DNA of 61,423 nucleotides from assembly GCA_023667185.1 (NCBI GenBank), contig JAMPAP010000004.1:1-61423 (forward strand). The letters are read 5' to 3'. Below the pieces are notes generated by a model. It was not told where the DNA came from. It searched no databases and saw only the letters and a program-made list of their open reading frames with translations. The position numbers and the translations under genes were made by a program. Of the stretch, positions 3,608 to 33,250 are shown in pieces. Position 1 is the stretch's first letter. Every line of letters begins with the position of its first letter. Origin of the DNA: Lachnoclostridium sp. GTDB lineage: Bacteria; Bacteroidota; Bacteroidia; Bacteroidales; Muribaculaceae.

Positions 3608-4846
3608 TTACTTGTTTATTTTCAGTCTGTTGAACTTGTTGCGCATTGCCTCCATATTCTCATAGATGGTCTTGTCCTGTATCTTGGCGTAGATCTGGGT
3701 GGTCTTGATGTCGGTATGACCGAGCATCTTCTGGATGGATTCGATGGGGACATGGTTGCTCAGCGAGAGTGAGGCGAAGGTGTGTCGGGCGATGTGCGTG
3801 GTCAGAGGCTTCGTGATTTTGGCAAGGTCGGCGATTTCCTTGAGATAAGCGTTCATGCGCTGGTTGCTGCATACAGGCAACACCACGCCATCGGCTATGA
3901 CAACGGGATGACCTTCATACTTGACGGCAATCTGATGCGGCACCTCAAGGAGAGGGATGATGCTCAGTTCGCCTGTCTTGTTGCGCGACTTGCGTATCCA
4001 CATATTGCCGTCAGCATCCCTTTCTATGTCGGAGCGACGCAGCGTCTTAATGTCGCAGAATGCCAGTCCGGTGAAGCAACAGAACACGAATGTGTCGCGC
4101 ACAATGTCCAGACGCGGTGTCGCCGACAGGTTCAGGCTCATTATCGTGACAAGCTCTTCCTCGGTAAGGAACTGGCGTTTCGCCTGTGTGCGGCGGAACT
4201 TTTTGCCCATGAACGGATCCTCGGCAATCCACTTGTGGGCTATGGCATACTGCATTGTGTTCTTCAGATAGCGCATATACTTCACTGCCGTGTTGTTGGC
4301 GCAATTCTTGCTGATGCGCAGAAAATGCTCGAAATCATCGAGCATACCGGCATTGACATCCCTCACGGGAATGTCGTCCACATTCATGGTGAGCTTGAAA
4401 AACTCTCCCAGATACTTCACGCAGCGTTCCCAGCGCAGATAGGTGGCGGCGACAATGTCGCCGCGCTCCATCTCCTCCTTGCGCTTGATGTTCGCCTCAG
4501 TGAAGATTTCACGGAGCATCTTCGGCTTCTCCGACTTGCCAAGGAACATATCGCGCATGGTGATAGGGTTGATGAGCTTCTGCTCGCGGAGCATGAAGGT
4601 GTAGATCTCGTTGAATCTGGCACGCACTTCATCAAGGTAACGGTTCAGTTCCTGGTCGCGGCGGGAACGGCCTTTAGATATCTTGCGCATCTGGTCCCAG
4701 TTCTCAGGGTTGATGGCACGGCCAATGGCGAAGTCAACATATTGACCTGCCACCGTAATCCGGGCATACACCTTATGCTCGGTGTAGCCTGCGGTTCTTG
4801 GCTTTCTTGTGAAGAAAGTCAGAGTGTAATAAGGGTTGTTGTTCAT
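3608..4846 (-). CDS. Tyrosine recombinase (Bacteroidales integrase)
   Basis: A 412-residue integrase with an N-terminal arm-binding domain, a SAM-like core-binding domain (about residues 110-215), and a C-terminal catalytic domain. Catalytic residues seen: Lys290 (RNKTG), His351 and Arg354 in HIARHTF, His377 in LGHT, and the nucleophile Tyr386 (TTQIYAK). The first catalytic arginine is replaced by alanine (FTGLAFCD, Ala262), a substitution known in the IntDOT-type Bacteroides integrases. It is transcribed away from tRNA-Lys at 5360-5432, the usual layout for an island integrated at a tRNA. It most likely catalyses excision and integration of the island that contains the two ATPases. Confidence 0.92.
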   Translation of the reverse strand: MNNNPYYTLTFFTRKPRTAGYTEHKVYARITVAGQYVDFAIGRAINPENWDQMRKISKGRSRRDQELNRYLDEVRARFNEIYTFMLREQKLINPITMRDMFLGKSEKPKMLREIFTEANIKRKEEMERGDIVAATYLRWERCVKYLGEFFKLTMNVDDIPVRDVNAGMLDDFEHFLRISKNCANNTAVKYMRYLKNTMQYAIAHKWIAEDPFMGKKFRRTQAKRQFLTEEELVTIMSLNLSATPRLDIVRDTFVFCCFTGLAFCDIKTLRRSDIERDADGNMWIRKSRNKTGELSIIPLLEVPHQIAVKYEGHPVVIADGVVLPVCSNQRMNAYLKEIADLAKITKPLTTHIARHTFASLSLSNHVPIESIQKMLGHTDIKTTQIYAKIQDKTIYENMEAMRNKFNRLKINK

Positions 4847-5359
4847 GTTTCTTTAAGCGTTTAATGGTTACTTAAATTTAATCATAATTTGCCGGATTTC
4901 CAAACGCGTTTAAGAACATTGAATAATGACAGTGTTAAAAATATGTACACAGAGGGTCAAATTGCGCGATTTTCGCCGATGTACATAGAAATCACATAGA
5001 ACGTACACGGAAAAAAGCGGAAATATGCGGAAGTGGACACGGCGGAATTTATGCGGTGGTTCAAATGTTAAACATTCTTAAATATTCAACAAGAATCGTC
5101 AATTTCGCTTCCCGGTGTTCCGTTCCCACACAAGCGAGCCCCACCAATTTTTAGGCTTTGAATCGCAACTACGCTATTGTCAGAAAATTGCGAGTCGGCC
5201 TGTGTGAATATGTACACGAGTGTACATAAAACGGTGTGTACATAGGATGTACATATCCGGGGGGTAATATTCCGCGTAATTCTGCAATTTGGGCAAAAAG
5301 AAAAAGCACTGAATATCAACTGATTTCAGTGCTTTGCGGTGGTTTTCGGTTCCCACTAG
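4847..5359. other. Gene-free region with GTACA repeats beside the integrase
   Basis: No credible gene lies in this 513-bp stretch. It holds seven same-strand GTACA copies, at 4944, 4981, 5003, 5212, 5222, 5238 and 5249, six of them as the palindrome TGTACA. They fall in two clusters on either side of a gap of about 200 bp. The position between integrase and tRNA is where arm-type integrase sites and an attachment core would be expected; that role is inferred. Confidence 0.5.
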
Positions 5360-5432
5360 TGATCCGCGTGGGGCTCGAACCCACGACCCCAACATTAAAA
5401 GTGTTGTGCTCTACCAGCTGAGCTAGCGAATC
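5360..5432 (-). tRNA. tRNA-Lys (anticodon TTT)
   Basis: The 73-nt cloverleaf folds cleanly. The acceptor stem GATTCGC/GCGGATC has 7 pairs including one T.G. The D arm (AGCTCAGCTGGTAGAGC), the anticodon stem CAACA/TGTTG with loop CTTTTAA, and the T arm GTGGG-TTCGAGC-CCCAC are all present. The anticodon is TTT. The discriminator is A and the 3' CCA is not encoded. A TACCTTTG promoter box lies at 5473-5480. The 3' end faces the island, so it is a plausible integration target. Confidence 0.95.
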
Positions 5433-5528: not shown

Positions 5529-6296
5529 TTAATAATCCCGCCTTTCGCTTTGCCGCTTATTTTTGATTTCTAATAGAAGTAGTCGTGGTAGTGTTTTTAT
5601 GATATTGAGGCATCTCGGAATCTGCTTCTTGGGTTCTTTGAAGATGCGGTGGAGGAATTCAAGGTGATTTCTGATCATCCATTCGGGTGCTCTTGAGGTT
5701 TCGGTGCCACTAAAGAATTTAAATGCTGCTCCGACGGCTATCATAACACCATGGTTAAGATGTGGTCGCAACCTGCTCATAAATATTTCCTGCTTTGGAG
5801 CTCCGAGTGACACCCAGATTATGTCTGCTCCGTCATCACAAACCATTTTGGCGATTGCCGGATAATCGAATTGTTCAATAGAGCAGAAGGGTAGCTCGCT
5901 GAATGTCATATTTGTGACTTCAGGGTTTAATTCGATAAGTTTGTTTCGGAGAGCATCAAGAAGTTCTTTATTAGCTCCAAGGAATAGCATTCGATATTTG
6001 CGGCTACGGATTATATCTTCAAATATCTGGGATCCGCAGTATTGTGTGTATCGTTTTCCATAGATCCATTTTATATATAGTGGAACGAAGTTGCTGTCGC
6101 AAATAGAAAACATTCCTCCATTCACTATTTTCAGATATTCAGGATCATCGAGAGTTATACTCGCTATGACGCCATCGGCGACACAGATATAATCGGATCC
6201 GTCTTCGGTCAGCCGTTGCTGAATAGCCTGATGAACCTTATGTCGGTCAAATTCGTAGTTTATATTAAAATATTTCTCCATCTTCGATTTATTCAT
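5529..6296 (-). CDS. WecG/TagA/CpsF family glycosyltransferase (GT26)
   Basis: A 255-residue cytoplasmic, membrane-associated GT26 enzyme. This family transfers ManNAc-type, ManNAcA-type or glucosyl residues onto a lipid-linked acceptor. Signature blocks: CDSNFVPL with Asp67, GAPKQE at 165-170, GAAFKFFSG at 189-197, RAPEW at 202-206, and HLEFLHR at 211-217. The basic C-terminus (KNKRQSERR) fits membrane attachment. It is the last gene of the polysaccharide operon. Family assignment is secure; donor and acceptor cannot be told from sequence. Confidence 0.9.
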   Translation of the reverse strand: MNKSKMEKYFNINYEFDRHKVHQAIQQRLTEDGSDYICVADGVIASITLDDPEYLKIVNGGMFSICDSNFVPLYIKWIYGKRYTQYCGSQIFEDIIRSRKYRMLFLGANKELLDALRNKLIELNPEVTNMTFSELPFCSIEQFDYPAIAKMVCDDGADIIWVSLGAPKQEIFMSRLRPHLNHGVMIAVGAAFKFFSGTETSRAPEWMIRNHLEFLHRIFKEPKKQIPRCLNIIKTLPRLLLLEIKNKRQSERRDY

Positions 6297-6335
6297 TAAA
6301 GCGACATTTAATTTTAGATCTAAATAGTCGAAATA

Positions 6336-7514
6336 TCAAGTTATATTAATATTATAATTTTTAATTATTGTTGTCAATAGTATATTCCATTTTTGTGTAA
6401 TCACATCAGTGGAATATTGAGACTTTAGTTTCTCATAAGCAGCTTTTCCAAGCTTATTACTTTCTGCAGGTGAATCCCAAAGCTTTTTGATTGCTTTGTC
6501 AAGACTATCAATGTCTGATGGAGTGGTGAGTATCCCAATTGAATCATCATCACTCCCTATAATTTCTGTAAAACCACCATGATTTGGTGCGATCATAGGT
6601 TTACCATACGATGCAGCTTCTAAAATAGCCATTGGAAACCCCTCATACCAGCGCGAAGCCATTACAAAAAAACGTGCTTTGCTATAAAATTCTTTAAGCT
6701 GATCTCCTTTTAGATACCCCAGGAGTTCAATATTTGATGGAAGATTTCTAACAATATTTCTATCTCTGACTGCGCCTGCAAATTTGAATTGTATTTCAGG
6801 ATGATTACGAGCTACGTCTATTATCATGTCAACGCCCTTTTCCTGACTTATGCGACCACTATATGCGACATATTCTCCAATGGGATAACTTGGCTTGTCG
6901 GTGATGTCTACAGAATTGGGAATTACTAAAATTTTTTCTTTAGGGAAACCTGATTGAATTAGTTTTTGTCGTTGAAAATCAGTAATGCAAGCGAATACGT
7001 CTACGCAGTCCATATAATGACGTTTTATTCGCGCAACGGCATTACGGGCAGCATATCCGATTGATTTAAAAATAGAATGTTCGCAGTTATATTTAATGCA
7101 GCCCCATTCATTTCCCTTCTCGAGACATACTTCACAAGGCTTATTGTCACGCATAAATAATCCGGTAGGGCATATCAGTCTGTAATTATGAATGGTCATA
7201 ACTACCGGCACTCCAACTCTTTTACATTCCCTTAATGCGGCAGGTGAAATAAATGGATATAGATTATGAACATTAACAACATCAGGTTTTTCTCGTTTTA
7301 GGGCATTTCGCATCGCTCTTACTCCCGATGGAGAATATATCCCACTGATAAAACCACGAATTTTACCTTTCAATGAGTCATTTAATCCTGATGTTGACAT
7401 TCTTAATTGAGCTACTTCCCAACCTGAATGCCTTAGTGTTTCAGCCATCTTATCTACTACAGCTTCTTCCCCGGAATATTTCCCATATTCGTTATGAACC
7501 AAAAGTATTTTCAT
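6336..7514 (-). CDS. Glycosyltransferase family 4
   Basis: A 392-residue GT-B enzyme. The N-terminal Rossmann domain opens with KILLVHNEYG...SGEE. A Cys-rich insert (LICPTGLF...CEVCLEKGNEWGCIKYNC) is typical of a Bacteroidetes GT4 subgroup and may bind metal. The C-terminal domain carries YSGRISQEKGVDMII and the EX7E-like EGFPMAILEAASYGKP. ATG 7514 is preferred over TTG 7520. Part of the capsule operon, about 40 nt from each neighbour. The linkage made is unknown. Confidence 0.9.
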   Translation of the reverse strand: MKILLVHNEYGKYSGEEAVVDKMAETLRHSGWEVAQLRMSTSGLNDSLKGKIRGFISGIYSPSGVRAMRNALKREKPDVVNVHNLYPFISPAALRECKRVGVPVVMTIHNYRLICPTGLFMRDNKPCEVCLEKGNEWGCIKYNCEHSIFKSIGYAARNAVARIKRHYMDCVDVFACITDFQRQKLIQSGFPKEKILVIPNSVDITDKPSYPIGEYVAYSGRISQEKGVDMIIDVARNHPEIQFKFAGAVRDRNIVRNLPSNIELLGYLKGDQLKEFYSKARFFVMASRWYEGFPMAILEAASYGKPMIAPNHGGFTEIIGSDDDSIGILTTPSDIDSLDKAIKKLWDSPAESNKLGKAAYEKLKSQYSTDVITQKWNILLTTIIKNYNINIT

Positions 7515-7554
7515 AATCAATGTAGAATGGTATTGTTGAATCTTATACGATGGT

Positions 7555-8442
7555 TTACTTATATATTAGGTACATTAATCGACTATATAATCTACGTAAT
7601 ATGCTATGATATGATAAACTTTGCTCTAAAATATATTTATCTATTATTATATCGGAAGGAAAATCAAATTCTGAATTATTTTGATCCATCATTTCGTATT
7701 TAAATCTGCTCCATTTTTTACAGTTTGTGCCAGTACCATCAAATCCCGTATTGGCTACCAAACTTTTAATTGGAAAAAGCGAGACCTTATCTTGTAAGAA
7801 TTGATTGAAACAGAATCTAATAGCCCAAGAATGATTGTGCCCATATTTCCATCCGTTCAACATTTTAAAACAGTCGGATCCACCCCATCGGTTAAACTTA
7901 GATTTATATTTTATATATTTATCCCAATCTGTTAGCTTCCAATCTACTGAATTCCACCTGTTTTTCCATGTTCCCCACCCCCATGAACTACTTCGAGTAC
8001 AGAAGTATGTATTGTAATTGTAATCTCTTGGAATTATAATTTTATTGGTGTATCCGCATATCGAAAAAACTTCATTATTATTCTCATAATAAGAAAGCCC
8101 ATCATTCATATATTTCAAAAACATAGGATGTAACACCAAGTCATCTTCCAACACAATAACTTGATTATATTTATTTATTATTTTGGATACACCTCTTATT
8201 ATTGACGCTCCCAACCCCCTGTTAATCGATGATAATTCTACATATAATGACTCAAAACCCTCGATTGACTCTGCATATTCTCTTATCTGACTAATTACCA
8301 GCCTATCTGAATTGTTTTTTGGGCCATCAATAAAAATAAACAATTTGGAAGCAGAATGTTCAGGACAATTTTTTAATGATTGAATAAGTCGCTGAAATGG
8401 AGCTAAGCGATTATACGCGAATATAACTATAGGAGCGTTCAT
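7555..8442 (-). CDS. GT-A glycosyltransferase (GNT-I/GT2-like)
   Basis: A 295-residue inverting GT-A enzyme. It starts with PIVIFAYNRLAPFQRLIQSL, has FIFIDGPKN and the metal-binding acidic motif VIVLEDDLVLHPMFLKYM, and a later SSSWGWGTWKNRW block typical of this GNT-I-like bacterial group. It would extend the lipid-linked repeat unit. A truncated gene with a very similar N-terminus lies just upstream at 8494-8604, which suggests one enzyme of this type replaced another. Strongly AT-rich, unlike the flanking core genome. Confidence 0.85.
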   Translation of the reverse strand: MNAPIVIFAYNRLAPFQRLIQSLKNCPEHSASKLFIFIDGPKNNSDRLVISQIREYAESIEGFESLYVELSSINRGLGASIIRGVSKIINKYNQVIVLEDDLVLHPMFLKYMNDGLSYYENNNEVFSICGYTNKIIIPRDYNYNTYFCTRSSSWGWGTWKNRWNSVDWKLTDWDKYIKYKSKFNRWGGSDCFKMLNGWKYGHNHSWAIRFCFNQFLQDKVSLFPIKSLVANTGFDGTGTNCKKWSRFKYEMMDQNNSEFDFPSDIIIDKYILEQSLSYHSILRRLYSRLMYLIYK

Positions 8443-8493
8443 AATTAATGTGGTTATCCCAATTAAATTAGTTGAAAAGTGGGTTTTGATATT

Positions 8494-8604
8494 TCAGCCT
8501 TGTGCGATATATAATCTTTCGGGCTGATATTTCTTTATTGATTGAAAGGCTTCTACCGACAATTCCGGCCGATTGAATATGAGGAACAATACAGGTACTT
8601 TCAT
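8494..8604 (-). pseudogene. Truncated glycosyltransferase (N-terminal stub)
   Basis: ATG at 8604 opens a 36-codon frame that starts MKVPVLFLIFNRPELSVEAF and ends at TGA 8494-8496. The sequence matches the N-terminus expected of the GNT-I-like bacterial glycosyltransferases (FNRPE, then SIKKYQPERLYIAQ where DGP should follow). It begins 4 nt after the stop of the upstream GT, as a real operon gene would, and then stops before any catalytic motif. It looks like the remnant of a gene replaced when the downstream transferase was acquired. Confidence 0.65.
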
Positions 8605-8608
8605 GTTA

Positions 8609-9769
8609 TTATATTTTACTAATGGCTTCGGACATTCGTTTTATGCCGGACTGGAATGAGAATATCTTGCGATATTCTTCTTGGATTGAGGCTTTTGAGG
8701 AATGGCCGTGTTTCAGTGATTCACAGCAGTTAATGAATGACTTGGGGTCAGAATATTTAAACATGATTTTTCGGTCGATAAATTCTCCATATCCACGGGC
8801 TGAAACGGCGTGGGTTATTACCGGGAGTCCATTGCGGAGTCCGTCCATTATTCTTAATTTTATTCCACCACCGAGTGAAGTAGGACAAATATAGCAGTCA
8901 GCCTGACTGAGGATTATGTCCATATTCTCGGGGTTGGGAATTAATTTTATTCCTAATGATCTACAGGCATTTATAATCTCCTGAGAAGGATTTTTACCGG
9001 CTATAGTAAGGGTGGATTCAGGAAAGTTTTTAAGCAGAATAGGGTAATATTCTTTGAGCCATGGTAGAAGAGAATCAATGGATTGTTTGTTGGAAAGATT
9101 GCCTGTTATAACGAAGTCTTTGATTTGATTATCTGTTTTTTGTTCGGTGATGTTATGACTATCGTTACTTGTTGACTCGAAAGAGCCTAATACGTTGAAT
9201 TTTGATTCTTTACCATCGACAAGGTAGTGATACTTGAGAAGATCGACATCTTCAGGCGTTAGGGCAAGATTTAAATCGCTTAGCCTTACGGCATCACCTT
9301 CACCTTTACGGGTTATTCTCATTGAGGGGTAATATAGTAGGCGAGATGAATTGTCGCGTACATATTCGAGTTCGCAGTTATGGTGAATTGTGATCACTTT
9401 TGCGCCTGTCTTATGAGCTATATCGATCAGGCCTAACGAACAGTGGGAATTGTCAAAGATAACGAGCTCAAATTTATCTTCTTCAATAAGTTTTTTAAAT
9501 GTTTTGTTGAAACGGAGATATTTACCGCGAAGGAGATTGTATAGTTTTCGAATTTTGGAAACGTTGTAGTATACTGGAATTACCTTAACTCGAGGGTCTA
9601 TTCCCTGAAGGGGATGAATGTCAGATGCCGGATATAATAACGTAACTTGGCCTTTTTCCGGATATATATTAGCAAGAGCATTTATATAGGCTCTTGAAGC
9701 ATACACTCCGCCTCCTACGCTATCGAGATAGTGGTAGGTTACAATCAGGATTTTCTTAATATCTTTCAT
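8609..9769 (-). CDS. Glycosyltransferase family 4
   Basis: A 386-residue GT-B transferase. The N-terminus has ILIVTYHYLDSVGGGVYASRAYINAL (nucleotide-binding glycine loop). The C-terminal half has FVITGNLSNKQSIDSLLPWL, then CPTSLGGGIKLRIMDGLRNG, a variant donor-binding segment, and PVITHAVSARGYG. It overlaps the 3' end of the polymerase gene by 14 nt, so translation is probably coupled. Donor sugar unknown. Confidence 0.88.
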   Translation of the reverse strand: MKDIKKILIVTYHYLDSVGGGVYASRAYINALANIYPEKGQVTLLYPASDIHPLQGIDPRVKVIPVYYNVSKIRKLYNLLRGKYLRFNKTFKKLIEEDKFELVIFDNSHCSLGLIDIAHKTGAKVITIHHNCELEYVRDNSSRLLYYPSMRITRKGEGDAVRLSDLNLALTPEDVDLLKYHYLVDGKESKFNVLGSFESTSNDSHNITEQKTDNQIKDFVITGNLSNKQSIDSLLPWLKEYYPILLKNFPESTLTIAGKNPSQEIINACRSLGIKLIPNPENMDIILSQADCYICPTSLGGGIKLRIMDGLRNGLPVITHAVSARGYGEFIDRKIMFKYSDPKSFINCCESLKHGHSSKASIQEEYRKIFSFQSGIKRMSEAISKI

Positions 9770-10955
9770 TGACGGATTTTCTAAAGGATAAATTCAGATA
9801 GCGGGATTTAAGGTGTAATGGTAAACGGCTTAGGGTAAAAAGATAGTAGAATACCATGAAGCAGCTGATTTTTCCCATATTCCCAAAATACATTATGGTC
9901 ATTGAGCAGAGAAGTATTTCGAAGGCGAGAAATCTTTCGTATAGGAGATATGATTTATTCTTGAGCGAAATTATAATCATATAAAAGAATACGATTATTG
10001 GGAAAATACCGAATTGGTTCCAATATCCTATAAATCCCATATCCGAATTGTATACTCCTTTATCCATCATAATGGCCATCAGTTTCGAAGTATGATTACT
10101 CAGGAATCCATTGCCGAATATGTCGCATATTATATTTGGAGAGGCTTTGTGGAAGAAGTATTCTAATGCTAGGTTTCGATTGTATTTCGGGTCGCCAAGT
10201 TCGTCGATGGTTTGTTCATAGAGCTCAATCCATGTCTCAATTGTCGAGACAAATACTAATCCGGCCATTACAGCAAATAGCATTACAATTAATCCTGCAT
10301 ATCGTGATTTCATTGACCATACTACATACAGGCTTATCAGTAGTGTAGGCAGCATTATAGATCGGTTTTGCTGAAGAACGATAATTACCAATAGCCATAG
10401 AAACATCAGACAGTTTTTAAGGTTATTCTTTTGCCTGTAGCATACTGCTGCGTAGCAGAAATAGATGCTCAGCAGTTCATATCCACCCAGAGCTACATCA
10501 TTTTCTCCTGTGTATTGTACTGATTTTGTGAATAGTGAAGGTACGACCAGACGAAGTATATAAAACACAGTATAAAGTATGGCGTATAATTTCAGAGATT
10601 TTATGAGTTCGCTTTCGGTTGGGCGCATTATAAGCAGCATAATTACGCCAAACATCAGGTATTGTGTCTTATACGTCAATAACGATGTTACAAATGATTG
10701 GCCGTAATATAGATTCACTGTAATCATCGAAATCGCGATTGAAGCGTATATGATAGTAATTAGCCATGAGTTGTGCCATGTAAGTAGCTTGGGTCGATGT
10801 GATACTGTCATATAATACAATGAGACAATGACCATAAGTCCAAGCGTAAACCCTAACCAAATATCTTCCGATAAGGCTTTATAAAAAGATAAGCCCCAGA
10901 ATTTATTCATTAGGATAAATATAAATGTGAGATAAAATTCTCTCGCTTTTAGCAT
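9756..10955 (-). CDS. O-antigen/capsule polymerase (Wzy-like)
   Basis: A 399-residue integral membrane protein with about 10-12 hydrophobic segments, for example FTLGLMVIVSLYYMTV, YLMFGVIMLLIM and YAGLIVMLFAVMAGLVF. It has a large loop (about residues 220-290, ETWIELYEQTIDELGDPKYNRN) before the last segments, the usual Wzy/O-antigen ligase topology. Wzy proteins polymerise repeat units on the periplasmic face. The assignment rests on topology and operon context, since sequence conservation is low. An EpsG-like or ligase role is the alternative. Confidence 0.75.
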   Translation of the reverse strand: MLKAREFYLTFIFILMNKFWGLSFYKALSEDIWLGFTLGLMVIVSLYYMTVSHRPKLLTWHNSWLITIIYASIAISMITVNLYYGQSFVTSLLTYKTQYLMFGVIMLLIMRPTESELIKSLKLYAILYTVFYILRLVVPSLFTKSVQYTGENDVALGGYELLSIYFCYAAVCYRQKNNLKNCLMFLWLLVIIVLQQNRSIMLPTLLISLYVVWSMKSRYAGLIVMLFAVMAGLVFVSTIETWIELYEQTIDELGDPKYNRNLALEYFFHKASPNIICDIFGNGFLSNHTSKLMAIMMDKGVYNSDMGFIGYWNQFGIFPIIVFFYMIIISLKNKSYLLYERFLAFEILLCSMTIMYFGNMGKISCFMVFYYLFTLSRLPLHLKSRYLNLSFRKSVNERY

Positions 10956-10999
10956 ATATAGTTAATTTCTGAATACCATTAATGCGACTTTAATAAAAA

Positions 11000-11749
11000 C
11001 TAAAACCCTGATAATTTATTGGTAATCGACTTTGCAATAGCGTGAGCTATGTCATTGCAAAATCTTAACCGTTCACGCATCGAAGGAGTGTGATCCTGAT
11101 GTGATACCCGATAATTAAGGATAACGTTTTTAATCTTATGATTAGAAGTGCCTTCCATCAGGTAGGTTACTACGGTTATATCAGTATGTCGGATTTTAGC
11201 TCCTGAACCCCACATCCTGTAGATCACATCGTAATCAAGTGCGTAGCCGAAGTCTTTTTTACGATCGACGGCAAATTTAAATTTCCGATGGAGAGCTGTT
11301 CTTATAAACGAGGCATTGTGGCGGTAAATAGGCCGCTTGGCAAGTAAGCTTAAATCAGTTTCGCCGGCAATAAATTTCTCAGATTTATCGGGCTTTATGA
11401 CTATTGCATCCCCATAAATTATATCGTCATCAGGTAGGAGTGCATTCACTATTTTCTCAATTGCATCATCAGATGAAAAATAGTCACCTGCGTTCATGAA
11501 GTTGATATATTCACCGGTAGCATGAGCTAATCCCTTATTCATAGCATCATAGATGCCTTGATCAGGCTCAGAGCACCAGTAAGCAAAGCGTGATGAGTAT
11601 TTTTCAATAATCTCGCGTGTGCCGTCAGTTGATCCTCCGTCAATGACGATATACTCAACATTGGGATATGTTTGATTTAGGACTGACAGCATGGTCTGCT
11701 CGATATCTTTAACCGCGTTATAGCATACGGTAACTACTGTTATTTTCAT
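11000..11749 (-). CDS. Glycosyltransferase family 2
   Basis: A 249-residue GT-A enzyme with all core motifs of this small capsular GT2 group: ITVVTVCYNAVKDIEQTM, YIVIDGGSTDGT, DQGIYDAMNKGL, and FMNAGDYF (acidic metal-binding motif). RHNASFIR and DYDVIYRMW follow in the acceptor half. ATG 11749 is preferred over TTG 11752. It follows the upstream GT4 by 4 nt. Confidence 0.92.
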   Translation of the reverse strand: MKITVVTVCYNAVKDIEQTMLSVLNQTYPNVEYIVIDGGSTDGTREIIEKYSSRFAYWCSEPDQGIYDAMNKGLAHATGEYINFMNAGDYFSSDDAIEKIVNALLPDDDIIYGDAIVIKPDKSEKFIAGETDLSLLAKRPIYRHNASFIRTALHRKFKFAVDRKKDFGYALDYDVIYRMWGSGAKIRHTDITVVTYLMEGTSNHKIKNVILNYRVSHQDHTPSMRERLRFCNDIAHAIAKSITNKLSGF

Positions 11750-11753
11750 CAAG

Positions 11754-12908
11754 CTAATTTTTAGAAATTATTTCTTCATAAAATGAATTAATGCTGCTTC
11801 CATAGCTTTCATATGTATAATATTGGTTAACTGTTTCCGAAGCACGACTGATAAGATCATAATAATCTTTAATATCCGAGATTATAACTTTTTCAAGTAG
11901 TTTACAGAGTTCACTGTTATTTGAAAATCGTAAACCTATTTCTTTTCCCGTGAAGTGAACACCATTATCAAATTGTTCTTTTACTCCTGCCGTGTCTCTA
12001 CCAATGACTAAGCAACCATTATTCATTCCTTCAACTACAATTCTTCCAAAAGCCTCATTATAACTTGGTACTACCAGAGCCTTGGCATTGTACATCAAAT
12101 CCGGAATGTCTTTTCTTTCACCAAGTAATCTAACATATTCGGAAATACCATTTTTTTTAATTAGTTTCTTTACATAACTTAGATAATCAGTCTTTACTGC
12201 TGAACCTGCTATCCATAATTCACACGCTTGTCTTTTGTCTGTATCGAGATTAGAATATGCTGTTATTAAGTCTTCTATACCTTTCTCCTTATAAAGAGCT
12301 CCAACATATAAAATATAATTACTCCTTTTGTAATTAAAACGAGTATATCCTGACGGAATTATTCCATTATATATAATTCTATTATTATGATGATCTAATT
12401 TATGAAAATCGGAAACTTCATTACCTATTGCTATACCATATTGTTTCTTATATTTTTTCATAATATTTTCATGTAGCATAATTGCTCCACAGTCTCGATA
12501 TCCAAATTCACGATAATGTGTGATATGAGGTATATTCATTTTTTTTGCAAGTCTGAAGCCTACATTAATTACACTTGTATTAGAGTGAATTATGTCGATT
12601 TGTTTATTCTTAACAAATTCATATGCCTTGACCAAGGCTCGATTGTTTATTCTCTGATTATGGATAAGTAATGGGATATATCGGATGTAATCAGATGCCT
12701 TCAAGCATTTTGGAGGGAAAGCCCAAACAAATCTTATACATTCAGTTTCAACCCCAATATCTTGCAAAGCCCTGGATAATTCTCCTTCAGAAGGTATAAT
12801 GGCATATATTTCATGCCCATATTTAATTAATTCTTTAACAAGTGTAAATCCGGATTTGCTTGCGCCACCCCTAAAAGAGGGTACATGAAAAAAGAACAAT
12901 ATTCTCAT
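11754..12908 (-). CDS. Glycosyltransferase family 4
   Basis: A 384-residue GT-B transferase. It starts MRILFFFHVPSFRGGASKSG with the glycine-rich donor loop. HSNTSVINVG, NYILYVGALYKEKGIEDLI, ERKDIPDLMYNAKALVVPSYNEAFGRIVVEGM (EX7E) and GNEVSDFH are also visible. Operon member between the flippase and the GT2 gene, very AT-rich. A 157-bp AT-rich gap with no gene separates it from the flippase gene. Confidence 0.9.
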   Translation of the reverse strand: MRILFFFHVPSFRGGASKSGFTLVKELIKYGHEIYAIIPSEGELSRALQDIGVETECIRFVWAFPPKCLKASDYIRYIPLLIHNQRINNRALVKAYEFVKNKQIDIIHSNTSVINVGFRLAKKMNIPHITHYREFGYRDCGAIMLHENIMKKYKKQYGIAIGNEVSDFHKLDHHNNRIIYNGIIPSGYTRFNYKRSNYILYVGALYKEKGIEDLITAYSNLDTDKRQACELWIAGSAVKTDYLSYVKKLIKKNGISEYVRLLGERKDIPDLMYNAKALVVPSYNEAFGRIVVEGMNNGCLVIGRDTAGVKEQFDNGVHFTGKEIGLRFSNNSELCKLLEKVIISDIKDYYDLISRASETVNQYYTYESYGSSINSFYEEIISKN

Positions 12909-13065
12909 ACAGAATAATCGTGCCTAATTTAAATAATAGATAATATACTCTAATCAAAAATTCGATTGTCTTCAGATATCAAATGCTTCGGATAAATTTC
13001 AATTCTTAATACGTAAATTAACATCCAGAAAGACTATAAAAGATTTACTCTTAATTAATTATATA

Positions 13066-14604
13066 TCATCCCTTACGTAATTTTGCTAAAATAACATCTT
13101 TAATATAGCTCCTTTCATTTTGATTTGCCCCAATAAACAAAATCACTGTCATCGTTATTGCTAATGATATTAATAACTTAGCTATAAGTTGTATGAATTT
13201 GTCATCAGGTATATTATTTAAAAGGAAATATATCGGAATTAAAGATACGGTCACGTATATTAAAGGTATTATAGTATTTCCTATATAATATCGATAAGAT
13301 AAATCAACTCGACGATGTGCAATTACTACTCTAATAATTTGAGCCAATGCAACTATTATGATAAGAACAATCATTGTAGAGTATGCAGGAGCACCGCATT
13401 TTAGTAATATCGCAGATATTGGAATGAAGGATAGTGTTATTATTCCAACAAATATCTGATAATTCTTTATTTTTCCTGTAGCTCGAATTAATTGAGTTAT
13501 AGGAAGCTCTAAACAATGAATAAGACAATAAACAAGAGCAAGCTTTGAGAAAATTATCATATCTGGTGATATAGAATCTTCACCCAACCAAATTGTTAAT
13601 AAAGACTTTATACATAATATTAAAGGAAAAGAAAATATTAACAAAAGATAAAATGAAAATTTACTACTCATAACTACGAGTGAGAATAATCTATCCATCT
13701 CCTTACTTGCATAGCTTTTTATAATTTGTGGTGTTACAGCAAGATAGAAATTTGTAGAGAAAGATTCTACCATGCTTGATACCTTATCCGCAATACTTTT
13801 AGCTGTGTTAATCAATGGCCCAAAGAATATATTTAACAATAAATTTTGTCCCGCTGTAGATAGCATACCGGATATTGAACCGAATAGATTCCAACCGGTA
13901 TAACTAAATAGTTCATAAAACGCGAGCTTATTCCAAAATCGTCTTATATTACATCCTGATAACTTAGAATGACAAAATAAAATATATAATGCCGCATTTA
14001 GAGCAGATTCGATAAGTATTAGAAACCCGTAAAATTCAAGTTTATTTTCTTCAGTTAAGTAAAGTAAATAAACCAGACCAAGTTTCGCAATTCCATCAAT
14101 GATACTGATATATGCGAATACTGACATCCTTTCATATGCTATAATGGAGGATGTATATGGAACAACGAATAAATTTATAACAAATGTAAATAGTGCTGTT
14201 TGATATACAAATTTTGCACTTTGCATTGAGCCGTGGGGAATATTGAGTAGCGATATGCAATTTAATCCAACTGTCTCTCCCAAAAATATAACACCCAGAC
14301 ATAAGACAGCGAAACAATATATAAACATACTAAATGTGTTCCGGTATCCTTCGATATCTTTCTTTCCAAGATGGAAAGCAAAATATCTTTGGGTCGCAGA
14401 AGTTAATGTCCCCATTAAAAATGATAATGTTATAACTGCACTCCCAACAACATTATATATACCATAATTAAGTTCACCTAATGCTTGGAGTGTCACCCTT
14501 ACGGTAATCAGCCCGATAAACATTAAGAATAACATTCTAAAATAAAGCAGGATCGTGTTTTTTGCTATATTTTTATTATTACTCGAATTACCTTGATTGC
14601 CCAT
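13066..14604 (-). CDS. Polysaccharide flippase (Wzx-like)
   Basis: A 512-residue membrane protein with about 12-14 hydrophobic segments. The N-terminus (NTILLYFRMLFLMFIGLITVRV, YGIYNVVG, TLTSATQRYFAFHLG) is characteristic of Bacteroidetes O-antigen flippases in the MOP superfamily. It exports the lipid-linked repeat unit across the inner membrane. It begins 19 nt after the stop of the full-length NusG-like gene. Together with the Wzy-like protein it indicates a Wzx/Wzy-dependent pathway; no ABC exporter is seen. Confidence 0.9.
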   Translation of the reverse strand: MGNQGNSSNNKNIAKNTILLYFRMLFLMFIGLITVRVTLQALGELNYGIYNVVGSAVITLSFLMGTLTSATQRYFAFHLGKKDIEGYRNTFSMFIYCFAVLCLGVIFLGETVGLNCISLLNIPHGSMQSAKFVYQTALFTFVINLFVVPYTSSIIAYERMSVFAYISIIDGIAKLGLVYLLYLTEENKLEFYGFLILIESALNAALYILFCHSKLSGCNIRRFWNKLAFYELFSYTGWNLFGSISGMLSTAGQNLLLNIFFGPLINTAKSIADKVSSMVESFSTNFYLAVTPQIIKSYASKEMDRLFSLVVMSSKFSFYLLLIFSFPLILCIKSLLTIWLGEDSISPDMIIFSKLALVYCLIHCLELPITQLIRATGKIKNYQIFVGIITLSFIPISAILLKCGAPAYSTMIVLIIIVALAQIIRVVIAHRRVDLSYRYYIGNTIIPLIYVTVSLIPIYFLLNNIPDDKFIQLIAKLLISLAITMTVILFIGANQNERSYIKDVILAKLRKG

Positions 14605-14623: not shown

Positions 14624-15607
14624 TCAGGAATGGTAGTGGGTGAGGAGGAGGCGGGTGAGGCGGGAGTTGGGGGTGGGAAGGGAGAGGGAGGCGATTGGGG
14701 GGAGAGTGGGTTGGGTGGGGTCGGTGAGGGTGAGGATGAGGGTGATGAGGAGGGTGGTCCAGGGGTTGGTGATTGCGGTGGCGTGGCGGAGGTAGAGGGT
14801 ATGGTGGCGGGCTGCGAGGGTGTGGTGGCCGAGGAGGCGGTAGATGGCGGTGAGGATGGCCTGGAGCTTGGCGTCGAGCTTGGGGTTGGAGAGGGTGACG
14901 GCGTTCATGCGTGAGGCGAAGATGGTGAGTTTGGCGGCGAGATGGGTGGGGAGTGGTTGGTCAAGGGTGTGGTGAATGGCTTCAAGGAGGGGCGGGGTGA
15001 CGGCGTCAATGAGGTCGTAGGCTCGGGTGGTGCCGGGGGCAAAGGAGAGGATGCGGATGTCGGTAGCGCGGATGTCGGTCAGCTTTACGCCGAAGTTGCC
15101 GTAGATGGCTAAGTGGATCGAGCCGGTTTTGCTTTTGGGGCGTGGTATGTAGTGGCCGGTAATGCCGGGGAAGCTGCCGTTGACTATCTGCACGATGTCG
15201 CCTTCGAGGAGGTCAACGTTGTCTAAGTTGTAGAACGGGAGGGAGTTGGAATACGCAAGGGCGATAGCTCGGAAGGCTTGCATACGCTGGTCGGTGACTG
15301 TAGCGTAGCGATGAGTGGATGAGCTGCGGTCGATCAGGAGCGAGAACCCGTTTTCGAGTGCGCAGAGCGCTTTAATATGGTCGATTGTTCCGCGGAGAAA
15401 TAGGTAATGGAATGCCAGACGAGCCTGACGCATAATGGTTTTGCCATTCACCTCTACCGGCATTACGTATGTGGGCGCAAATAATTGTAATCCGGCCGAC
15501 GTTGCTACGTTGTAGCTGTCAACAATCGTTTGAGCCTGCTGACTGCCTGAGTTGCCGGGATTCACAAAGTTGAGCACATACCATGCTTCGTTTGTATCCT
15601 CGATCAT
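14624..15607 (-). CDS. UpxY/NusG-like capsule antiterminator, full length
   Basis: A 327-residue protein. Residues about 8-110 are an NGN domain (WYVLNFV at the start) and 135-190 a KOW-like segment (EGDIVQIVNGSFPGITGHYI). A 130-residue C-terminal helical extension follows and ends in a Leu/Thr/Pro-rich tail. UpxY proteins of Bacteroides bind RNA polymerase at the capsule leader and stop premature termination. Residues 8-152 are identical to the truncated copy at 16553-17083. The last 250 nt are extremely C-rich and G-poor on the coding strand. The C-terminal extension is unusual against the NGN+KOW size of about 170 residues; related Muribaculaceae proteins may share it (inference). Confidence 0.8.
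   Translation of the reverse strand: MIEDTNEAWYVLNFVNPGNSGSQQAQTIVDSYNVATSAGLQLFAPTYVMPVEVNGKTIMRQARLAFHYLFLRGTIDHIKALCALENGFSLLIDRSSSTHRYATVTDQRMQAFRAIALAYSNSLPFYNLDNVDLLEGDIVQIVNGSFPGITGHYIPRPKSKTGSIHLAIYGNFGVKLTDIRATDIRILSFAPGTTRAYDLIDAVTPPLLEAIHHTLDQPLPTHLAAKLTIFASRMNAVTLSNPKLDAKLQAILTAIYRLLGHHTLAARHHTLYLRHATAITNPWTTLLITLILTLTDPTQPTLPPIASLSLPTPNSRLTRLLLTHYHS
14637..14900 (-). promoter_or_regulatory. C-rich, G-poor transcript segment (possible rut site)
   Basis: On the plus strand this is a run of GGTG, GAGG and GGGG words, so the minus-strand transcript is nearly G-free and rich in C and U. Such C>G bubbles are the known signature of Rho-loading sites. It lies at the 3' end of the antiterminator gene, directly before the Wzx gene. 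Function is inferred. Confidence 0.35.
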
Positions 15608-15640
15608 AAAATCAGTGATTCATCCTCGAAAAAGATGTTC
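15161..15640 (-). repeat. Duplicated antiterminator 5' segment, copy A
   Basis: Bases 15161-15585 are identical to 16637-17061 (constant offset 1476). Beyond 15585 the match continues through the start codon with scattered differences and fades around 15650. Confidence 0.93.
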
Positions 15641-15717
15641 TTTACTTGGCCTGATGTAGTCAAAGCGTTATTTTACAACGAATTAACTATTTCAGTTCTT
15701 AATTCTGGTTGTCAGTT

Positions 15718-16431
15718 TTATAGAAGACTAATTAATTTAGAAGTGACAAACGAATCAGATTTACGTATATAATGAATATTGTCCTTATGCCAATATTTAG
15801 ATTTAAGCATTATATCGTCTATATCGTAAAAAGTAAGGTTATATTCGTTAGCTACTTGCTCGATAATTTTATTTTTTGCCTCAACTACAGCGTTTTCTGC
15901 ATCATCAAATTTCTCTTTTGGCTTAATATTTAATATTTCGCGAATATATTCAATGTATCGATTTGCCTTTCGAGGTATGAACATGTGAAGTGTTGATAAT
16001 ATAATCACTTTCGGGAAAGAAGCCCGACAAATATCTACGAGTTTTGAAAAGTCATTGTGGAATCTTTGATAATCATATTGTGTAAAGAAATCAGTACCAT
16101 CTTCCTTACGTCTAGAGTGATTTCCTATCCATATAAATACTGCGTCATAATGATATAGCCCATTTTTGAAAAAACATTTGAATTGTTCCCAAAACATTAT
16201 GTCGCGAAGAGCTGCTGAAGTGGCAAAAAGATCCACAGGGCAATTCAATTTTCTTGCCATGGTACCTCTTATTTGACGAGATACACTATCGCCTATCAAC
16301 AATATTCGATGTTCTGATTCTGTGTTAGCCTGATCATACCAAAAATTAGACCATTCAGTACTTTCTTTCCCATTGTAAGAATTGAGATATTCATTTTTAC
16401 ATATTATTTCATCAATTTTGTCCAATATCAT
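15718..16431 (-). CDS. SGNH/GDSL hydrolase
   Basis: A 237-residue protein with the SGNH blocks: block I ILLIGDSVSRQIRG (nucleophile Ser), a GNHSRR block III-like motif, and KDNIHY (Asp-x-x-His, block V). No signal peptide is seen, so it probably acts in the cytoplasm. Relatives in capsule loci are thought to add or remove acyl groups on sugars. It is AT-rich and lies between the two copies of the antiterminator gene, so it appears captured by, or spliced into, the regulatory module. Its substrate cannot be deduced. Confidence 0.8.
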   Translation of the reverse strand: MILDKIDEIICKNEYLNSYNGKESTEWSNFWYDQANTESEHRILLIGDSVSRQIRGTMARKLNCPVDLFATSAALRDIMFWEQFKCFFKNGLYHYDAVFIWIGNHSRRKEDGTDFFTQYDYQRFHNDFSKLVDICRASFPKVIILSTLHMFIPRKANRYIEYIREILNIKPKEKFDDAENAVVEAKNKIIEQVANEYNLTFYDIDDIMLKSKYWHKDNIHYIRKSDSFVTSKLISLL

Positions 16432-16552: not shown

Positions 16553-17083
16553 CTAACATTCACCACCAATAGACAATCTGTGTTCCTGATTTGCCGTCCT
16601 CAGTGTATCGAGAGAGGTGCTCGTCTGCAGGACAATAATGCCGGGGAAGCTGCCGTTGACTATCTGCACGATGTCGCCTTCGAGGAGGTCAACGTTGTCT
16701 AAGTTGTAGAACGGGAGGGAGTTGGAATACGCAAGGGCGATAGCTCGGAAGGCTTGCATACGCTGGTCGGTGACTGTAGCGTAGCGATGAGTGGATGAGC
16801 TGCGGTCGATCAGGAGCGAGAACCCGTTTTCGAGTGCGCAGAGCGCTTTAATATGGTCGATTGTTCCGCGGAGAAATAGGTAATGGAATGCCAGACGAGC
16901 CTGACGCATAATGGTTTTGCCATTCACCTCTACCGGCATTACGTATGTGGGCGCAAATAATTGTAATCCGGCCGACGTTGCTACGTTGTAGCTGTCAACA
17001 ATCGTTTGAGCCTGCTGACTGCCTGAGTTGCCGGGATTCACAAAGTTGAGCACATACCATGTTTCCGTTGTATCCTCGCTCAT
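16553..17083 (-). CDS. Truncated UpxY/NusG-like protein (NGN only)
   Basis: A 176-residue frame whose residues 1-152 match the full-length antiterminator, with only a few changes near the start. It diverges in the middle of the KOW motif (after GSFPGI) into 24 unrelated residues and a stop. The NGN domain that binds RNA polymerase is therefore intact and the KOW domain is lost. It is the first gene after the putative invertible promoter. It may be a decaying leftover of a recombination, or a short interfering form that competes with the full protein; the sequence cannot decide. Confidence 0.7.
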   Translation of the reverse strand: MSEDTTETWYVLNFVNPGNSGSQQAQTIVDSYNVATSAGLQLFAPTYVMPVEVNGKTIMRQARLAFHYLFLRGTIDHIKALCALENGFSLLIDRSSSTHRYATVTDQRMQAFRAIALAYSNSLPFYNLDNVDLLEGDIVQIVNGSFPGIIVLQTSTSLDTLRTANQEHRLSIGGEC

Positions 17084-17110
17084 AAAATCAGTGATTCGTC
17101 CTCGAAAAAG
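16637..17110 (-). repeat. Duplicated antiterminator 5' segment, copy B
   Basis: Second copy of the 425-bp identical block (16637-17061), with a similar but mismatched continuation through the start codon and early leader. The left junction at 16637 is abrupt. Confidence 0.93.
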
Positions 17111-17177
17111 ATGTTTTTTACTTGGCTTGGAATAGCCAAGGCGCTATATTATAACGTATTAACGCTCTTGCGATACC

Positions 17178-17303
17178 AAACTTCCGAAAACTCTGCCGAC
17201 AACTTCTGTCGGCATGTTTATGAACATCCATCGGAAGCGACTCCGATCGATTGCGCAAAATTACAAAAAAAATATTAAAATTATTACAAATTTTCGGAAG
17301 TTT
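17178..17303. promoter_or_regulatory. Candidate invertible capsule promoter
   Basis: AAACTTCCGAAAA (17178-17190) and TTTTCGGAAGTTT (17291-17303) form a perfect 13-bp inverted repeat around a 100-bp segment. Inside lies TAATTTTG on the minus strand (17256-17263), a TAnnTTTG box aimed at the capsule genes, so the present orientation is read as ON. A TTTG at 17287-17290 could be a -33 element, but the 23-bp gap is long. Bacteroidales capsule promoters are known to invert in this way; for this site it is inference. Confidence 0.6.
17195..17246 (-). other. Structured capsule leader RNA
   Basis: The leader between the promoter and the first gene can form GCCGAC/GTCGGC (17195-17200 with 17208-17213) and TCGGA/TCCGA (17231-17235 with 17242-17246). 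TCGGAAG (17231-17237) can instead pair with CTTCCGA of the left repeat arm (17181-17187). UpxY-type antitermination acts on such leaders. Confidence 0.4.
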
Positions 17304-17330
17304 TTTCTCCAAGTAAGTGACAATTAAAAA

Positions 17331-18239
17331 TCAGCCACATTCTTGCTTCGCTCGAAATTCCGAAGGCGTCAGCCCGGAAATCCGTTTGAACAGGCGCGAG
17401 AAGTGAGCCGGGTACTCAAACCCCAGTGAATATGCTATTTGAGCCACATCATCCGAATTTTTCACCAGTAACTGCTTGGCATGGGCTATGATATGACGCG
17501 ATATCATCTCCTTAGGTGTCAGTCCGGTCTCTTTTCTAACTAAGTCGCTGAAATAGTTGGGCGTAAGGCAAGCCTTCTCGGCAAAATAAGCTACCGAGGG
17601 GATCGTTTTCGACGTATCGCCATCCTTATAATACATCTTCAGCTCGCGATGAAACTGCGCCACAACGTCAGAGTTCACCTTATGGCGGGTGATAAATTGA
17701 CGGTCATAGAAGCGGTGCATATATTCGAGAAGCAGCTGGATATTAGCCGAGATTACCGCCGCAGAGTGATTGTCGACTGAATGTTCAAGCTCCCTGCGTA
17801 TCATATCCAGGCAAAAGACAAACTGCCGCCGCTCATCCTCCGACAGATGTAACGCCTCCATCTCGGAATAATCAAAGAAACTGAACTCTCCAATCTTCTC
17901 AGCAAGCGGAGTGCCGTAGATCAGATCCGGATGAAACATCAGCCCTATCACATCAGGTGCTATCTCATCCACCTCCATATCCACATCTATCAGCTGCCCG
18001 GGAGAGAAACTCACCACTGTACCCTCCTGATAATCATACTGCCTGCGCCCATATTTTATAGAACATTTTGCCCCGTTTTTCAGAAAAAGCGCATACACTC
18101 CATAGTTCATCCTGACGTGATTCACCGGGAGTGTGGCCGTCTTGAGATCTATCACCGATACAAGCGGGTGAAGCGTCTTCATGCCATACAACTTATTGTA
18201 GGCATCAATCGAATCGAGATTTACTATCGGATTATCCAT
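17331..18239 (-). CDS. AraC-family transcriptional regulator
   Basis: A 302-residue regulator. The N-terminal two-thirds is a cupin-like sensing domain (FLKNGAKCSIKYGRRQYDYQEGTVVSFSPGQ). The C-terminal 100 residues are the double HTH (SVAYFAEKACLTPNYFSDLVRKETG, then IAYSLGFEYPAHFSRLFKRISGLTPSEFR). Start is ATG 18239; a start 9 codons upstream would enter the likely promoter (TACTTTCG at 18248-18255, one mismatch from TAnnTTTG). It is divergent from the hydrolase-acetyltransferase pair, its likely target. Its 3' end is only 28 bp from the putative invertible capsule promoter. Confidence 0.9.
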   Translation of the reverse strand: MDNPIVNLDSIDAYNKLYGMKTLHPLVSVIDLKTATLPVNHVRMNYGVYALFLKNGAKCSIKYGRRQYDYQEGTVVSFSPGQLIDVDMEVDEIAPDVIGLMFHPDLIYGTPLAEKIGEFSFFDYSEMEALHLSEDERRQFVFCLDMIRRELEHSVDNHSAAVISANIQLLLEYMHRFYDRQFITRHKVNSDVVAQFHRELKMYYKDGDTSKTIPSVAYFAEKACLTPNYFSDLVRKETGLTPKEMISRHIIAHAKQLLVKNSDDVAQIAYSLGFEYPAHFSRLFKRISGLTPSEFRAKQECG

Positions 18240-18349
18240 GCTGCGAAAGTAACGAAATTTTATCACATAACGAATGATTCAGTGATTTTGTTAAGGATAT
18301 CTTGAAAATGTATAAAACACTCATTCGACTTTCTTCGTTATTTTGCAGT

Positions 18350-19420
18350 ATGAAACATATTATATCAACCGCCGTGCTGATGCTGATCTCACTGGCTTCT
18401 AATTCACAAATCATGAATAATCCGAATACTGACACATCGTTGGCTCCCGCTCAGAAACTCGAGCTAACTCAGGAATGGGACAAAGTCTTCCCTAAAAGTG
18501 ACAAAGTTGACCATAAGAAAGTGACATTTATCAACCGATATGGCATAACCCTTGCTGCCGATATGTACACCCCCAAGGACGCCAAAGGCAAACTCCCGGC
18601 TATCGCCGTCAGCGGCCCTTTCGGAGCAGTCAAGGAGCAGTCAAGCGGCCTATACGCCCAGCAACTCGCCGAGCGCGGATTCCTTACTATAGCCTTTGAC
18701 CCGTCATTCACCGGCGAAAGCGGAGGCATGCCCCGGCGCGTGGCATCTCCTGATATTAATGTGGAAGATTTCTCTGCCGCCGTTGACTTCCTTTTGGTGC
18801 AAGATAATGTCGACACAGCCCGCGTAGGCATACTCGGCGTCTGCGGTTGGGGCGGAATAGCTATACAAGCCGCCATAAACGACCCTCGTATCAAAGCCAC
18901 CGTAGCTTCAACCATGTACGACATGACCCGTGTCAATGCCAATGGATACTTCGACAGCGAAGACTCGGCTGCCCAACGCAACGCCAAGCGCGCCTCAATG
19001 GCTGCCCAACGGACCGAGGATTACCGCAACGGCTATTATAAGCGCGCCGGCGGAGTGATTGACCCTTTACCCGATGACGCACCACAGTTTGTCAAAGACT
19101 ATCATGCATATTACAAGACCTCGCGCGGCTATCACCCCCGCAGCGGCAACTCTACTGATGGATGGAACGTAACATCCAACCTCCCATTCCTTAACTTCAA
19201 ATTCTTCGAATATGCCTCCGAACTTGAAAACGCAGTGCTCATAGTCCACGGCGACGCTGCACACTCCTACTACTTCGGAAAAGACACATTCGCTCTCCTA
19301 AAAGGCGACAATAAGCAGATGCTCACCATCAAAGGAGCCTCCCACTGCGACCTCTACGACCAGCTTGACATCATCCCCTTTGACGAAATTGCCGCATTCT
19401 ATAACGAATACCTCAAATGA
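18350..19420 (+). CDS. Secreted alpha/beta hydrolase with Cys nucleophile
   Basis: A 356-residue protein. Residues 1-20 ([20 protein letters not shown]) are a signal peptide, so it is periplasmic or exported. The nucleophile elbow is GVCGWGG, with Cys in place of Ser, as in dienelactone-hydrolase-like and YcjY-like relatives. Other family marks are [22 protein letters not shown] (acid region) and GASHCDLYD (catalytic His). ATG 18350 is used because TTATTTTG at 18338-18345 looks like the promoter box, making the upstream ATG at 18308 unlikely. It overlaps the acetyltransferase start by 4 nt. Substrate unknown. Confidence 0.82.
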
Positions 19421-19983
19421 CTCTTGAATATTTCCGGCAAATGATTGCCGAAGGTAAGCCGCTTCAAGGTGACGACATGATTCAATTCATGCGTCACCAG
19501 AGCGACATCTCACGAAAATTACAGTTTGAACTCAACTGCCGGTATCACACCCCCGAAGAAATACGCCATCTCTTCGGCCAAATCATCGAGCAGAAAGTCG
19601 ACGACGAGTTCCGACTCTTTCCCCCATTTTACACTGACTTTGGTCGTAACATCCACATAGGCAAAAAAGTATTTATCAACTCCTGTTGTCACTTTCAAGA
19701 CCAGGGAGGCATCTACATCGGCGACGGGTCTCTGATAGGCCATTGTGTAGTCCTCGCTACACTCAATCACAACCACGACCCTGCCCTACGCCAAAACCTT
19801 AGCCATGCACCCATCCGCATAGGCCGCGGAGTATGGATCGGAGCCAACGTAACAATAACCGCCGGAGTGACCATTGGCGACAACGCCATCATCGCCGCCG
19901 GAGCCGTCGTCACCCGTGACGTCCCGCCCGACATGATAGTCGGCGGCGTACCCGCCCACATCATCAAATCCATCTACGACTAA
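19417..19983 (+). CDS. Sugar O-acetyltransferase (LacA/Maa family)
   Basis: A 188-residue left-handed beta-helix acetyltransferase. The N-terminal Mac domain carries [21 protein letters not shown]. Hexapeptide repeats run from about 70 to 180 ([57 protein letters not shown]). The catalytic His lies in ATLNHNHDP. It transfers acetyl from acetyl-CoA to a sugar hydroxyl. Translationally coupled to the hydrolase by an ATGA overlap, so the pair probably acts on the same acylated glycan or metabolite (inference). Confidence 0.92.
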
Positions 19984-33084: not shown

Positions 33085-33250
33085 TATAGGTCACGCACAA
33101 AGTAAATGTGCATTTTGATGGACATCTTTTGTGCGCATGACCACTCGCTCATCAATCATGTGGGATTCACCACACTCATTCTTCACGAGTGTCCATACCC
33201 ACCAAAATATTATCCCTAAAAATGCACATTTACTTTGTGCGTGACCTATA
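33085..33250. repeat. 166-bp palindromic (MITE-like) element before crcB
   Basis: Perfect 32-bp inverted repeats at 33085-33116 and 33219-33250 enclose 102 bp. An inner pair ATGGACA/TGTCCAT (33118-33124 with 33190-33196) extends the symmetry. No gene is encoded. The right arm ends 5 bp before the crcB start codon. Confidence 0.85.

Follow-up and report, generated by a model that had tools for sequence, protein, structure and literature searches.

An inverted repeat around a capsule-type operon promoter as a predicted leader-RNA element and the probable relic of a divergent leader

A perfect inverted repeat that frames the promoter of a capsule-type operon, and that a first-pass annotation took for the two ends of an invertible promoter, is read here differently: its left arm is predicted to be a conserved, covarying element of the operon's leader RNA, and its right arm is probably what is left of a second leader that ran the other way. 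The repeat itself is as that annotation gave it, with 13-bp arms at positions 17178-17190 and 17291-17303 of the window (the whole 61,423-nucleotide stretch of DNA analysed) and a spacer of exactly 100 bp, and the -7 box TAATTTTG likewise lies where it was placed, at 17256-17263 on the minus strand. The annotation had the biology right and the repeat wrong. Taken as a whole, the explanation in which a leader-RNA element, a divergent-leader relic and a promoter fixed ON come together, with the leader loading a UpxY-like factor, seems to us reasonably likely.

The assignment of the promoter to a capsule operon was borne out, since the region heads a capsule-type operon led by UpxY-like genes, all on the minus strand. 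The first gene is a truncated UpxY-like copy of 176 aa (16553-17083); then come a GDSL lipase/acyltransferase-like gene (15718-16431; PF13472, 33.9 bits for a cut-off of 32.9), a full-length long UpxY-like protein of 327 aa with a NusG-like N-terminal part and a helical C-terminal part (14624-15607), and the remainder of the polysaccharide operon (5529-14604), comprising glycosyltransferases, a WecG/TagA/CpsF protein and a membrane protein. Both UpxY-like copies fall under the curated NF033644 cut-off of 100 bits, the truncated one at 39.7 and the long one at 44.0; the third UpxY-profile match in the genome, on contig C22 (64.9 bits), is presumably the housekeeping NusG. Inside the two UpxY copies, and flanking the GDSL-type gene, is a direct repeat of 426 identical bases (16636-17061 and 15160-15585). 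Homologous recombination at this repeat would delete the GDSL-type gene together with the truncated UpxY copy, and it is possibly a switch of polysaccharide modification.

An AlphaFold2 model of the long UpxY-like protein (pLDDT 78.6, pTM 0.59) has a helical C-terminal part, and a Foldseek search with this model returned NusG, RfaH-ops and NusG-RNA structures, with a best E of 4.8e-7 and low query TM-scores of 0.20-0.25. The model is thus consistent with a NusG-type fold in a protein whose gene leads a capsule operon. These are the two points of likeness to the UpxY antiterminators of NF033644; the proteins here differ from them in scoring 39.7-46 bits for a cut-off of 100, and the long form also in its length of about 330-340 aa, against 164 profile positions, and in its helical C-terminal part. 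UpxY and UpxZ are described in PMC12632263.

Seven long UpxY homologues in related genomes (L021-L027) have, upstream of the gene, a stretch identical or almost identical to the left arm. A scan of genome_contigs with a long-UpxY protein alignment gave 22 related loci (L043-L064), which include six of those seven and three close pairs (L047/L049, L050/L060 and L061/L062), and whose family we take as probably Muribaculaceae. The conserved motif, here called box1, was found by regular expression in 20 of the 22, and by weight matrix with a score of at least 18.7 in 21; the exception, L059, scored 11.8, and its leader matched the covariance model described below at 26.2 bits. For alignment and training we used 22 leaders, namely those of the 21 loci other than L059 plus L026 of genome G007, leaving the window out. 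A second motif, box2, follows box1 by 65-68 nt in 20 of these 22 (it was unrecognised in L051 and L056) and by 65 nt in the window. The distance from the start of the -7 box to box1 is 73 nt in the window and usually 70-73 nt in related loci with an operon-facing box, with 81 in L051 and 48 in L055.

Transcription from the promoter at about 17256 would drive the polysaccharide operon, and the first element transcribed would be a structured leader RNA, in which the P0 hairpin, box1 (the left arm), an imperfect hairpin of fixed length and box2 follow in that order; the outer stem and the conserved internal loop are predicted to arise from box1 together with box2. In the window this domain (17106-17193, minus strand, model R1) comprises the outer stem, the internal loop, P1 with its inner hairpin, and box2 (CCAAGTAA); the left arm, TTTTCGGAAGTTT on the minus strand, supplies the 5' strand of the outer stem and of the internal loop and the start of P1. 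The letters GAA opposite AGUA in the internal loop recall what we take to be a bulged-G module. P0 (TGCCGACA/TGTCGGCA, 17194-17214, minus strand) lies just upstream of box1, and a predicted extension of this hairpin would pair with the first bases of box1; a hairpin tendency directly upstream of box1 (z below -1) was seen in 18 of the 22 loci, compared with 9 of 22 when a control stretch downstream was used. A copy of the 3' half of the leader, with box2 and without box1, precedes the full-length UpxY copy (15608-15687, minus strand; 85% identity to 17084-17163; 12.4 bits).

The pairing is supported by covariation, with compensatory changes in six of the eight pairs of P1. Across the 22 training leaders, with the outer stem included, 90.2% of cells were paired, as against 46-55% in slid controls, and 30 cells showed double changes, as against 10.1 in shuffles, none of 500 of which reached 30. 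In the outer stem the variation is mostly U-A to U-G, so that the support there is mostly one-sided. Covariance model R1, built from the 22 relatives with the window excluded, gave a match of 53.4 bits (E 2e-11) in the window. A separate set of 17 leader copies, none of them used for training and one of them the window, had 81.0% of its cells paired (slid controls 37-58%) and 25 with double changes (11.0 in shuffles; 0 of 500 as many), in an alignment (A5) that was itself fitted to the covariance model; RNAalifold predicted no pairs from a free alignment of the 17 held-out copies (A6), and with default settings on alignment A3 it predicted P1 alone. Rfam gave no match up to E 5 in window positions 16900-17500, none in L048 (2700-3050), and two tRNAs and nothing else at the gathering score in 18 loci. 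A literature search found no description of the leader RNA, an absence that is no proof that none exists. From its conservation and covariation, then, we read the left arm as a leader-RNA element. The right arm lies upstream of the promoter box, so that only the left arm can belong to this RNA; the earlier remark on leader folding was a useful lead, in that the left arm is in the predicted fold, with a partner other than the right arm. In L048, a second and weaker leader-RNA match (2755-2829; 19.5 bits, E 0.011) lies on the same strand inside an invertible segment and is perhaps another relic.

A covariance-model scan of 297 genomes of the family, run with filters that drop weak matches, found 30 copies of the RNA in 28 genomes: 15 training loci, the window and 14 others. 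Only the 14 others test the association with UpxY, because the training loci were chosen by their UpxY gene. A long UpxY lies downstream on the same strand in nine of them (L112, L117, L118, L121-L124, L126 and L128). No UpxY follows in the other five; the RNA directly precedes a flippase-like gene in L120 and L125, another ORF lies downstream in L106 and L119 (both from genome G377), and L127 ends 99 nt past the RNA. These five copies, two of them directly before flippase-like genes, fit a ligand-sensing or translational control element that works independently of UpxY loading, as does the compact fold of fixed length near a start codon; this reading has to contend with the nine independent copies that do have a long UpxY behind them on the same strand, and we regard it as unlikely. 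Canonical UpxY leaders were considered as carriers of box1 and dropped, since the 30 canonical loci contained no leader box (four of them scanned from an approximate start and one with 163 nt upstream only) and no model match below E 1. Work on recognition of paused polymerase by Bacteroides UpxY (Saba et al. 2024) is said to have found that a leader hairpin aids UpxY loading; the leaders of that kind differ from the window's in that the 30 canonical ones are without box1.

The nearest published parallel that we met is LoaP, which, according to PMC12691694, binds a leader hairpin. Like LoaP and its UNCG leader hairpin, the window combines a NusG paralogue, a folded leader RNA and a long biosynthetic operon; unlike them it involves another RNA in another phylum, for which binding by the UpxY-like protein is a prediction. 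RfaH and ops offer a further likeness, since there too a surface-polysaccharide operon has a short conserved leader element along with a NusG paralogue; the difference is that ops is read as non-template DNA (PMC12691694), whereas box1 would be one half of an RNA fold that covaries. On the model of LoaP, RfaH/ops and UpxY, the leader most likely loads the UpxY-like factor: it would mark or pause RNA polymerase, the P0 hairpin being a possible pause site, and the long NusG paralogue of UpxY type, whose gene lies downstream, would load there and carry transcription through the long operon.

It could instead be that box1 acts as an ops-like pause element in non-template DNA rather than as RNA. 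Its near-invariant core is followed by T-rich letters and a G, a hairpin sits just upstream, and RfaH-ops complexes are, with a NusG-RNA complex, among the structures closest to the long UpxY model, at low TM-scores; the fixed spacing to box2 and the compensatory changes in P1 nevertheless point to RNA. We consider this alternative rather unlikely. A plain ops-like DNA element, an early idea of ours, was weakened by box2, by its fixed spacing and by the P1 covariation. The DNA and RNA readings of box1 can be compatible.

The right arm (17291-17303, plus strand) is a second copy of box1 in opposite orientation upstream of the promoter, and the match between the two arms is unlikely to be due to chance. 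Of 5000 dinucleotide shuffles made from the local intergenic region (248 bp), 11 held any perfect repeat of this length or longer; in shuffles of 17206-17330 the 13-mer appeared once in 20000 and the motif score of the right arm was reached in none of 20000, and on these latter counts a chance repeat was judged unlikely. Across the window there were three perfect repeats with arms of 13 bp or more and a spacer of 30-300, against 0.37 expected (100 shuffles, maximum 3), so that it is nothing unusual for such a repeat to turn up somewhere in a window.

On the right-arm side, model R1 aligns with more than the arm itself. A putative truncated divergent leader (17288-17327, plus strand) consists of box1 (TTTTCGGAAG), 8 nt and a box2-like stretch (CCAAGTAAGTGACA); with filters off it ranked directly behind the true leader, at 13.0 bits (E 0.04 in 4 kb), and in a wider search of 211 kb it was a weak match with E 2.1. 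Reverse copies of box1 scored at most 8.2 in the 22 related loci, of which L044, L047 and L061 offered under 60 nt upstream of box1, as against 21.0 in the window. In 14 further loci they scored at most 10.9, except for 15.4 in L112, from genome G250.

This genome has what appears to be the intact form. G250 carries divergent leader RNAs of 55.1 and 24.3 bits, each before a stop-free long UpxY frame with a run of polysaccharide-type genes behind it. Between the leaders (L129, G250:C4:117000-136000, 15116-15548) there is one promoter, framed by perfect 59-bp inverted arms 155 bp apart, whose outer ends extend into box1; the -7 box faces left as assembled. A recombinase gene at the far end of the left operon encodes a protein 46-56% identical to those of the related loci L052 and L056. 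Among 34 related loci searched with filters off (L044, L047 and L061 left out), G250 alone has a divergent leader beside the promoter. Because the right arm aligns with both box1 and box2, and because the intact form exists in G250, we read the arm as a divergent-leader relic: it would probably be the box1 of a second leader that has lost its middle and its operon, the recombination arms having presumably been lost as well, and the ancestral arrangement would have resembled that of the relative, with one promoter between 59-bp inverted arms and two divergent capsule operons.

Were the right arm instead a working element in its own right, it could be an operator upstream of the promoter, which it adjoins, or the leader of an antisense transcript into the AraC-type regulator gene (17331-18266, minus strand) that ends 27 bp away. 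The improbability of a chance match and the survival of box1 and box2 with the middle gone are compatible with this idea; the reverse copy is nonetheless absent from all 22 related loci, P1 could not form, and what lies behind the arm on the plus strand is the AraC gene in antisense, the next plus-strand genes with family matches being about 1 kb off (a hydrolase at 18302-19420 and a hexapeptide transferase at 19417-19983). We judge this improbable, and a relic remains the preferred reading of the right arm.

Invertible capsule promoters of Bacteroides are turned by the serine invertase Mpi, and Tsr tyrosine recombinases act in the same setting. Inversion of Bacteroides capsule promoters is described in PMC12632263 and PMC3090145. 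Inversion of this kind appears to occur in the relatives, with other arms. Ten of the 22 related loci frame the homologous promoter with inverted repeats of the type ATCTCTTNNNAAGAGAT or variants of it, and in all ten the -7 box points in the direction opposite to the operon; L026 of G007 has arms of the same type with the -7 box toward the operon, and three related contigs end at such an arm. These arms differ in sequence from the 13-mer and lie between promoter and leader. The window has a dyad, ATCGGAAGCGACTCCGAT (17230-17247, strandless), about where relatives carry an inverton arm, and no partner for it was found in 16800-17800. The relatives' arm core TCTCTTNNNAAGAGA and a wider core CTCTTNNNAAGAG, used because the first pattern would miss variants such as those of L052 and L054, gave no match in the window's genome (2.29 Mb, 93% complete), a search built on the relatives' arm types that other kinds of arm would escape. 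CTCTNNNNNAGAG occurs once in the window, at 38359 (0.85 expected), and one 14-mer searched in the window had no match.

The first-pass annotation had proposed looking in the genome for other copies of the arm and for an invertase. The 13-mer occurs only at its two places in the 2.29-Mb assembly; the same assembly, 93% complete, has no match to the serine recombinase family and six to tyrosine recombinases. One of the six, on contig C39, is 45-47% identical to the recombinases of L052 and L056, invertible loci that have a tyrosine recombinase gene just upstream. The statement that no dedicated invertase gene lies nearby needs correcting, in that a tyrosine recombinase gene (3608-4846, minus strand) is found beside tRNA-Lys (5359-5432), at the end of the capsule operon. 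We rejected it as first choice for a dedicated invertase because it adjoins that tRNA gene and because its identity to the recombinases found near invertible relatives (those of L052, L056 and G250) is no more than 27-29%; it is more like the integrase of a mobile element.

The window therefore resembles the Bacteroides invertible promoters in having a promoter upstream of an upxY-type gene, and in that related loci hold theirs between inverted repeats; it differs in that its arms appear to be leader elements, and in that its genome contains neither a serine recombinase match nor the relatives' arm core. Arms shared with other loci or relatives, the mark of an invertible capsule promoter, were not found. 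If the 13-bp arms were sites of active inversion, with one of the genome's own tyrosine recombinases as the driver, a perfect repeat that bounds a promoter would be accounted for; the idea would also agree with the framing of related capsule promoters by inverted repeats, and could call on the six tyrosine recombinase matches, the C39 one included. Against it, relatives keep box1 without a partner arm, their own arms differ in sequence and have a core that finds no match in the genome, the window's arm occurs at no other genome site, and the flip would move the P0 hairpin too, which in invertible relatives mostly lies outside the arms. We consider such inversion very unlikely. It was rejected as first choice, and the 13-bp arms were given up as recombination sites, because the left arm is a leader-RNA element conserved in relatives that lack the right arm. 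With one arm a piece of leader RNA and the other an apparent leftover of one, the promoter probably no longer flips; since the known recombination arms are missing from the genome, it is most likely fixed ON.

How UpxY-type factors locate their own capsule operons is understood in part. A compact, covarying leader RNA found mostly beside one UpxY subfamily would be a testable recognition signal outside Bacteroides, and a two-sided promoter such as that of G250 would be an either/or capsule switch, not an on/off one. In its broadest form, the proposal is that an undescribed class of RNA loads long UpxY proteins in this Bacteroidales family, that in some members an invertible promoter of the G250 type picks between two divergent capsule operons, each of which has a leader RNA and a UpxY of its own, and that the window is a fossil of that arrangement; we find this somewhat less likely than not. 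A literature search found nothing on invertible promoters or phase variation in Muribaculaceae, or on UpxY together with UpxZ and promoter inversion. The window also carries a warning, namely that a capsule promoter may be framed by a perfect inverted repeat without being part of an inverton.

Other inverted repeats were seen in the window and its genome. A perfect 32-bp inverted repeat (33085-33116 / 33219-33250) with a spacer of 102 bp lies just upstream of a crcB gene. On contig C39 (L095, G000:C39:1-16000), a repeat of about 32 bp with one mismatch (14903-14934 / 15041-15072, spacer 106) lies between two genes. On contig C22 (L097, G000:C22:346000-362000), a 19-bp perfect inverted repeat (9609-9627 / 9902-9920, spacer 274) adjoins a tyrosine recombinase gene at 8188-9411 and is a candidate for a real inverton of this genome.
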